In this document: positions 21,151 to 38,944 of the stretch, one piece after another | Numbering within the stretch: position 1 is the stretch's first letter | Layout: every line of letters starts with the position of its first letter | Notes under the pieces: generated by a model | Databases searched by the model: none | Seen by the model: only the letters and a program-made list of their open reading frames with translations | Told to the model about the DNA's origin: nothing | Position numbers and translations under genes: made by a program | Assembly: GCA_021815405.1 (NCBI GenBank) | Contig: JAKAGV010000008.1 | Coordinates: forward strand, 186,001-250,000 | Direction of reading: 5' to 3' | Origin: Bacteroidota bacterium | GTDB taxonomy: Bacteria > Bacteroidota > Ignavibacteria > Ignavibacteriales > Ignavibacteriaceae | DNA: 64,000 nucleotides

Positions 21151-21284
21151 TTAATACTCACGTTACGCACATGTCATGCTGAACTTGATTCAGCATCCCA
21201 AAAATGCTGAAAAATGAGATTCCGAATCAAGTTCGGAATGACAAAGTAAATTAGATCCTTAATTGTGCGTAACGTGAGTTAATA
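21151..21284. repeat. Palindromic repeat family A, copy 3 (variant TIR)
   Basis: Ends actcacgttacgcac / gtgcgtaacgtgagt are perfect inverted repeats around two hairpins. Confidence 0.8.
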
Positions 21285-36858: not shown

Positions 36859-36941
36859 ATTCTTACGTCTTTCTTTTAGTCTTCATCTTTCTCTTAATTG
36901 ATTTTAAATCCGATTAAGATTAAGGGCACGATTAAGAGTTC
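36859..36941. repeat. Palindromic repeat family B, copy 2 (degenerate)
   Basis: ttcctattcttacgtc..., tctcttaattg...gattaagattaagggcacgattaagag. Confidence 0.5.
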
Positions 36942-36960
36942 TCCGAGTAACATAATTTAA

Positions 36961-37088
36961 TAACTGAAGTTACGCAATTGTCATGCTGAACTTGTTTCAG
37001 CATCTAAAAACAGCTTAAAAATAAAGATTCCGAAACAAGTTAGGAATGACAAATGGATCATTTTATTCATTTTGCGTAACTTCAGTTA
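36961..37088. repeat. Palindromic repeat family A, copy 4 (best preserved)
   Basis: Perfect 17-bp terminal inverted repeats taactgaagttacgcaa / ttgcgtaacttcagtta; internal hairpins as in other copies. Confidence 0.9.
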
Positions 37089-37094
37089 ATAAGT

Positions 37095-37247
37095 CATTCC
37101 CGATAGTTTCGATACTTCTTGATGAATCGGAATTACTCATTCGCTTTGCCGGAAATGAAAGGTCATTGAGTTTCTCCGGTCGCTTCGATACTATTCCTCA
37201 AAGACTCAGAATAACTCAGCGACCGGAGAGGTATCGAGATGACCGTC
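37095..37247. repeat. Composite palindromic repeat family D, copy 2
   Basis: ggtcattgagtttctccggtcgct...agcgaccggagaggtatcgagatgacc stem, arranged as at 19374..19607. Confidence 0.65.
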
Positions 37248-37285
37248 TGGGTTCTTCACAAATTATTCTAATTCTTATTAAGAAT

Positions 37286-37474
37286 CTCTGTTTCTTTCTC
37301 TAAGAAACTCAGAAAATTCCACTGAAACTCCGTGCATGTTCACATGAATTTTTTAAGCTTTCATAAGACTTCTATGGCATTTTCCAATGGTTCCGGGGAA
37401 TGTCACAGAGCTTTCGGGGACTTCCACAGGTATTTCGTGGAGTTCCACAAATGTTCTGTTGTATTGGTTCAGCG
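37286..37474. repeat. Second tandem array of ~9 degenerate 21-bp units
   Basis: TTTCGG-like anchors at 37286, 37307, 37328, 37349, 37370, 37391, 37412, 37433, 37454; best units ttccggggaatgtcacag, tttcggggacttccacag, tttcgtggagttccacaa. Confidence 0.75.
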
Positions 37475-37536
37475 TGAAATGGAATTTCAAGTTGATTAAG
37501 TAAGGTGAAAAATCAGTCCGTCTAGCGACGAGGTTT

Positions 37537-38442
37537 TCAACTAACATGTTTCACCTCATAACGAGCTTTTTTAGCTGATTGTAATTTAATATTTCTTTGA
37601 TCAAGTTTCTCATTAATTCTGTTATTCAAGAAATCATCGGGAGTAAGATAAAATAAAGAGCTGTGCAGTCGCTTGTTGTTATAATAATCGACAAACTTAG
37701 CAATCTGCTCTATGGCATCATCAAGGTTTATCATAGACTTAGCCTGAATGCACTCTAGCTGAATGGTCCTATGGTAACGCTCAATCTTACCGTTACTCTG
37801 AGGATATGCAATTGAAGTGCGAATATGCTGCAGCCCGGCAAGCTTCAAGTAAACTGCAAAGTCTTTAGAGATATACTGAGGTCCATTATCAGTAATGAGT
37901 CTGGGTTTAACACCGGGATATTTCTCCAGGGCTTTCTGCACGGTAAGCTCTATATCGTACTCCTGCATATTTAGCCTTAGCTCATGATGGACAATATAAC
38001 GCGAATAACCATCAATAACAGAGATAAGAAATAAGAAGGTGCCGCGGAAGTTAACGTACTTAATATCATTGTGCCAGTGCTGATGAGGCGCAGTCGGCTG
38101 AATAAACCCGCTGCCTTTGGATGATTTCTTAACCTGGTTCCAACGATTAAGCAAGCCGACAGATTTCAAGACTCTGTAAGTAGTTGAAGGACTTACGGCT
38201 GCTATGTTATCGTCTATCATCATGTAGGTTAGTCTTCTGTAGCCTTCACCAAAATGTTCTTTGGCATAGTTAATAATGGCTTGTCTTTCCCAGTCCAGTA
38301 TCCAGTGCTGCTTTGGAATGGTGCCGTTATGATTGTTGGCTTTATCTTTACGGTCAACCCAGGAGTAGTACTTACTGGAGCTGATGCCTATAAGCTGAAG
38401 CAGCTTACCGTTCGGAATATTTGTTTTAGATGTCATCATCAA
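37537..38442 (-). CDS. IS3-family OrfB-like integrase/transposase (rve/DDE)
   Basis: WHNDIKYVNFRGTFLFLISVIDGYSRYIV...RLITDNGPQYISKDF...YPQSNGKIERYHRTIQLE; track start is TTG and the frame stays open 24 codons upstream to the orfA stop. Confidence 0.85.
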   Translation of the reverse strand: MMMTSKTNIPNGKLLQLIGISSSKYYSWVDRKDKANNHNGTIPKQHWILDWERQAIINYAKEHFGEGYRRLTYMMIDDNIAAVSPSTTYRVLKSVGLLNRWNQVKKSSKGSGFIQPTAPHQHWHNDIKYVNFRGTFLFLISVIDGYSRYIVHHELRLNMQEYDIELTVQKALEKYPGVKPRLITDNGPQYISKDFAVYLKLAGLQHIRTSIAYPQSNGKIERYHRTIQLECIQAKSMINLDDAIEQIAKFVDYYNNKRLHSSLFYLTPDDFLNNRINEKLDQRNIKLQSAKKARYEVKHVS

Positions 38443-38514
38443 AGTAAACTCTACAATGTTATCTCGTACGTCAGGCTCGACCCACTGAGCATTTAGTTGT
38501 CCCCATCGATACTT

Positions 38515-38826
38515 TTACGCCAAAGGCGCACAGGTTTTTATTTCGATGTTCTCCCTAAGAAGAAAACTAATTGCCTCATCACGGTCTTTGAGCTTAGACT
38601 GGAGCTTCTCGATCTTTCTCTGTTCTGCAGAAAGCTGCTGAGAGTTGGATACTTTCGGCTTAAAAATATCTTGGGCAGATTCAAATAGCTTTTTCTTCCA
38701 GTTGTAGATGTCATTTGGTCTGACTTGATACTTTTCTGCTATTTGGCTGATATGGACATTGTTCTCTAATAATTCGCGTAGGATTATTACCTTTTGTTCT
38801 GCTGAGTACTGCTTTCTTTGTTTCAT
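38515..38826 (-). CDS. IS3-family OrfA-like HTH protein
   Basis: QYSAEQKVIILRELLENNVHISQIAEKYQVRPNDIYNWKKKLFE. Confidence 0.85.
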   Translation of the reverse strand: MKQRKQYSAEQKVIILRELLENNVHISQIAEKYQVRPNDIYNWKKKLFESAQDIFKPKVSNSQQLSAEQRKIEKLQSKLKDRDEAISFLLRENIEIKTCAPLA

Positions 38827-38944
38827 GGAATCTCCTATAATATTTTACACTAATTGTAATTTACGAAATTCCATTTCCATCTGAAGCTTTACAATATCAT
38901 TCATAGTCACCCAATTGCTATTCATATTCTTTGAAGCGAAGGAG

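Follow-up and report, generated by a model that had tools for sequence, protein, structure and literature searches.

Plasmid iterons, such as those of pSC101, R6K and P1, are Rep-binding direct repeats that are directional and non-palindromic, lie next to a gene, have units specific to each replicon and are spaced at about two helical turns, being kept in phase with the B-DNA repeat (PMC5043065). In type III toxin-antitoxin loci (ToxIN, CptIN, TenpIN), a short tandem-repeat array adjoins a small gene, and the array is transcribed as a repeat RNA that binds or restrains the adjacent protein. Intergenic DNA also harbors MITEs and other IS-derived elements, and palindromic repeats of the REP/BIME type. 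Here we describe DNA arrays repeating every 21 bp, that is, two turns of the double helix, which are found in two classes of one bacterial phylum beside genes for three families of small, mostly helical proteins, although the repeat sequence differs from array to array. We found no description of such arrays in the curated family libraries and the literature searched, and the feature is apparently undescribed.

The starting point was an island within a 64,000-nucleotide stretch of a Bacteroidota genome of the Ignavibacteriaceae (GCA_021815405.1, contig JAKAGV010000008.1, positions 186,001 to 250,000 of the forward strand; hereafter the window, with coordinates counted from its first base). A sequence-only reading had noted that two islands share a modular order, a family A repeat, a family D repeat and a 21-bp array, that the second lacks the ORF present in the first and is abutted by an IS3-like element, and had proposed a mobile or recombining composite element with a decayed or ORF-less second copy. 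The observation was confirmed in our analysis. In the second island, family A is a non-autonomous MITE of 122 bp on the plus strand (36964–37085), with inverted ends CTGAAGTTACGCA/TGCGTAACTTCAG and the 7-bp target duplication TTAATAA on both sides (36957–36963 and 37086–37092). Family D (about 37095–37255) is a palindromic repeat with inverted arms at 37173–37184 and 37218–37229, matched by blastn at only a handful of other sites in the genome. The array consists of seven 21-bp units at 37328–37474, assigned to the minus strand only by analogy with the first island; TRF alone detects 37404–37449. The gap between D and the array is about 72 nt, a little more than the roughly 40 nt estimated initially, and contains no ORF of 90 aa or more. 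The IS3-type element (37476–38877, minus strand) has inverted ends at 37476–37488 and 38865–38877 and carries an HTH_Tnp_1 OrfA (38515–38826) and an rve OrfB (37537–38442); it begins about one base after the last unit and is present as a single copy. No target duplication was recognised at 37475/38878, possibly because it has decayed, and the right flank has no unit-like sequence, so that the array does not resume beyond the element.

The first island also has the order initially described. It consists of a family A copy of the A1 subfamily (18461–18597, minus strand, 90% identity), a D-type repeat (19390–19612) just 3' of an ORF (19610–20284, minus strand), an array of about 13 units upstream of that ORF (20381–20757, minus strand), and a family A copy at 21147–21284 (plus strand) that belongs to a second subfamily, A2, at about 80% identity. 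The two subfamilies have different ends (CTGAAGTTACGCA and CTCACGTTACGCAC); about 40 copies at 90% identity or more occur in this genome, a further family A copy in the window lies at 1196–1320, and with many copies 96–99% identical and target duplications of about 7–8 bp ending in TAA, family A appears to have been recently active.

The interpretation as a single composite mobile element is only partly supported. The shared order is not due to chance, as D and the arrays co-occur well above background: D has about ten sites in the genome and none in 420 kb of evenly spread sequence, and 7 of 10 sites lie within 2.5 kb of an array, against about 8% of 5-kb background windows (3 of 6 when sites found through A or the array are left out). 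D lies 3' of the gene in island 1 and at C1:79 kb, and close to the array in island 2, for which "ORF-less copy" is a fair description, given that arrays of this kind belong beside helical-protein genes. However, D was seen beside array-gene pairs only in the window's own genome, family A transposes alone with its own target duplication, the IS is an independent single copy, and there are no shared outer ends or duplications around the whole island. In another locus (L026), a family A copy with its own duplication interrupts an array, so there the array is older. About nine A copies lie within 500 bp of an array, but this enrichment is weaker evidence, since both are intergenic and most of these loci were picked for A. 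We also compared the orthologous asnS-upstream site in relatives, as had been suggested as a test. One relative, G012, has a gene-less 21-bp array there (z 11), without A, D or IS and without unit similarity to the window's array; ten other relatives show no array in the sequence examined, and no linked gain or loss of A, D and array was seen. A composite element is thus considered unlikely, and A, D and the IS are best viewed as separate elements gathered in the same intergenic islands.

The period of 21 bp defines a genome-wide class. A lag scan of 407 kb found period 21 (and 42) far above any other, and within the range of 13–40 period 21 stands alone in this genome. A composition-corrected score over about 827 kb gave 22 hits at period 21, with z up to 21.7, and only scattered weak hits elsewhere; in an evenly spread 420-kb sample there are five or six such arrays. 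The arrays were sampled, and the loci centred on A are biased toward A. The units differ completely between most arrays, and a search for a common motif gave a sense-strand similarity only slightly above the reversed control. Two orphan-like arrays next to D (L036 and L055) share a palindrome-like unit (TTGGAAATTTCCAA), unlike most arrays. A sub-period of 7 bp was considered and rejected, because the signals at periods 14, 28 and 35 are harmonics of our score and the unit autocorrelation shows no clear signal.

Many arrays in this genome lie next to an unannotated ORF of roughly 130–240 aa, with gene calls based on ORFs, although several have no such gene. One of these proteins (L050:2378–3085; the same locus has, at 25–690, an ORF made of near-perfect 16-aa coding repeats, LDELGSRYAFAKSNSQ, with masked bases near its end) proved to belong to a multi-copy family of about 235 aa in relatives, and most homologs carry their own 21-bp array upstream. 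A profile search detected this first family in 53 of 299 genomes of the class, representing 32 of 154 genera; some matches are short and weak, and the profile included the island-1 protein, whose self-match is therefore not evidence. Named loci belong to Stygiobacter and other Ignavibacteria or Bacteroidetes MAGs. A second family, helical with an Fn3 tail, has arrays upstream in 6 of 6 homologs, followed in most loci (L165, L166, L168, L170, L171) by a recurring motif resembling AGTGCGAAAATNGAGTAAAAACG, a possible fixed array end. A third family (query L018:2842–3438) led to another class of the phylum, where 33 of 396 genomes have members and the arrays lie mostly 0–300 bp downstream (18 downstream, 4 upstream); two homologs (L254 and L263) have very strong 22-bp arrays instead (z 24.8 and 21.8). 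The first and third families are unrelated by profile comparison (hhalign probability 4%) and the first family's profile does not pick up the Fn3-tailed protein, these being the comparisons on which the separation of the families rests.

With a single score and a threshold that we set (z21>7), arrays are present at 39/56, 6/6 and 24/29 homolog loci of the three families, against 3/34 control loci (1/11 asnS loci, 0/12 aminotransferase loci and 2/11 loci with family A matches in relatives), whereas the median z for periods 20 and 22 is about 3 in the two larger families. Stretches totaling 360 kb from five other genomes (G013, G018, G190, G009 and G003), of which only G003 has a detected family-1 match, contain no period-21 array, and in 420 kb from four genomes with the family (G025, G020, G022 and G251) period 21 appears only inside coding regions with heptad repeats. 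These results bear on the possibility that the arrays are ordinary minisatellites, created without function by replication slippage in intergenic DNA next to fast-evolving genes. The divergence of units between arrays, the presence of 42-bp higher-order repeats, occasional phase slips that look like a tandem-duplication history, and the existence of orphan arrays are all compatible with this view. Nevertheless, slippage does not explain one exact period in over 90 arrays of unrelated sequence, the association with three gene families, or the absence from random intergenic DNA of other genomes, and the arrays of many other periods that it predicts beside these genes at a similar rate were not observed. 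We consider this explanation unlikely.

To explore what is conserved within the units, column conservation was Fourier-analysed over the 21 positions. The spectrum peaks at 10.5 bp, with values of 2.27 in the first 41 arrays, 1.93 in 30 others and 2.15 in 24 arrays of the third family (2.13±0.17 over 95), compared with about 1.6 for matched AR(1) noise, so the excess looks real but is modest. There is no 3-bp peak (power 0.93 at period 3, below the null), which argues against decayed coding sequence of heptad-repeat coiled coils, in which 7 codons would equal 21 bp. Period 21 does arise in real coiled-coil ORFs, and 22 of 41 arrays have an open sense frame against 13.5 expected, but 19 of 41 have stops in all three sense frames, and this origin appears very unlikely. 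Palindromic units were not found above chance, and folding calculations, which did not include pseudoknots, gave no excess fold energy (mean z -0.2). In the first family the sense strand is purine-rich in 35 of 41 arrays, which speaks for directional arrays; in the third it is not. Units resemble each other only when the proteins share more than about 45% identity (Mantel r 0.30, p 0.0045), although few pairs lie in that range.

An RNA module comparable to type III toxin-antitoxins would be compatible with the array-then-gene layout of the first two families, with the patchy, multi-copy and fast-diverging distribution and with the purine-rich sense strand. It is, however, considered unlikely: apart from the fold-energy result and the lack of palindromic units, the third family mostly has the array downstream, the first family's protein is predicted to be all-helical and not ToxN-like, with no Pfam or PADLOC match, and an RNA gives no reason for conservation at 10.5 bp.

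No match in Pfam, NCBIfam, PHROGs, PADLOC or PDB sequences explains the array-linked proteins, the hits obtained being scattered weak coiled-coil matches that were discarded. AlphaFold models of families 1 and 3 are all-helical bundles (mean pLDDT 85 and 88) without a significant Foldseek match, the most plausible being the McpS sensor bundle for family 3 (TM 0.52, E 0.52). The 224-aa protein of island 1 is not significantly related to the main family when left out of the profile (E 0.18), and is regarded here only as an array-linked protein with a similar tail (GG..TPPPTPPAQ).

Taken together, the analysis establishes that the 21-bp arrays are noncoding DNA held at exactly two B-DNA turns beside genes for at least three families of small, mostly helical proteins in two classes of the phylum, whereas the binder, the binding itself and any biological role are inferences from sequence. 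In the reading that we favor, although we regard it as no more than about as likely as not, each array would be a row of directional protein-binding sites displayed on one face of the double helix, so that a binder, most simply the product of the neighboring gene or a partner of it, could assemble cooperatively along it, as on plasmid iterons, resulting in gene control or a local nucleoprotein structure. In this view the unit drifts with its gene and only the spacing is kept, and the window's array is an orphan whose gene was lost or never present, now surrounded by an independent MITE, a D repeat and an IS insertion. The main weakness of this model is that no DNA-binding domain was recognised in any of the proteins. 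Furthermore, the presence of several protein families beside the same kind of array fits a common array with a variable gene as well as a gene product that binds its array, and the downstream arrays of the third family without purine bias, the arrays lacking a gene and the absence of unit similarity at the asnS sites also count against it. A broader and more tentative hypothesis is that of a phylum-wide class of chromosomal phased-array loci, in which unrelated small helical proteins are each paired with a private row of roughly 6–24 direct repeats, conserved only in their 21-bp spacing, that act as one-face assembly platforms for nucleoprotein filaments or bundles built by the neighboring protein. 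A repeat class defined by an exact helical spacing and not by sequence would be missed by sequence-based repeat and RNA-family searches. The association links many unannotated small proteins to a specific DNA feature and turns "hypothetical protein" into the testable question of whether each protein reads its own array and whether the spacing matters; if so, this would be a DNA-organising or regulatory principle for Bacteroidota/Ignavibacteriota, amenable to study in vitro with short synthetic DNA.

Among described elements, family A is a MITE, but it is separate from the array. D resembles REP/BIME-like repeats in being an intergenic palindrome, but it is rare here (about ten sites) and linked to arrays. 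The island-1 protein and another array-linked protein weakly match the NCBIfam PQLLE family (NF052641; E 1.2e-6 for the island-1 protein), far below the model's cut-off (28 vs 80 bits), and literature searches returned no description of that family. Type III toxin-antitoxin loci likewise place a short tandem-repeat array next to a small gene, but here the units are of 21 bp, roughly 6–24 in number, without detected RNA structure in the fold-energy analysis, often downstream, and the protein is helical. Plasmid iterons share with the arrays direct repeats in helical phase, at 20–22 bp, the period here being exactly 21 bp apart from the two loci with 22-bp arrays; by contrast, the arrays are chromosomal and often several per genome, they accompany several gene families with a binder that is only inferred, and the adjacent protein, modeled as a helix bundle without a Rep or winged-helix match in Pfam, NCBIfam or PHROGs, is not a Rep initiator.
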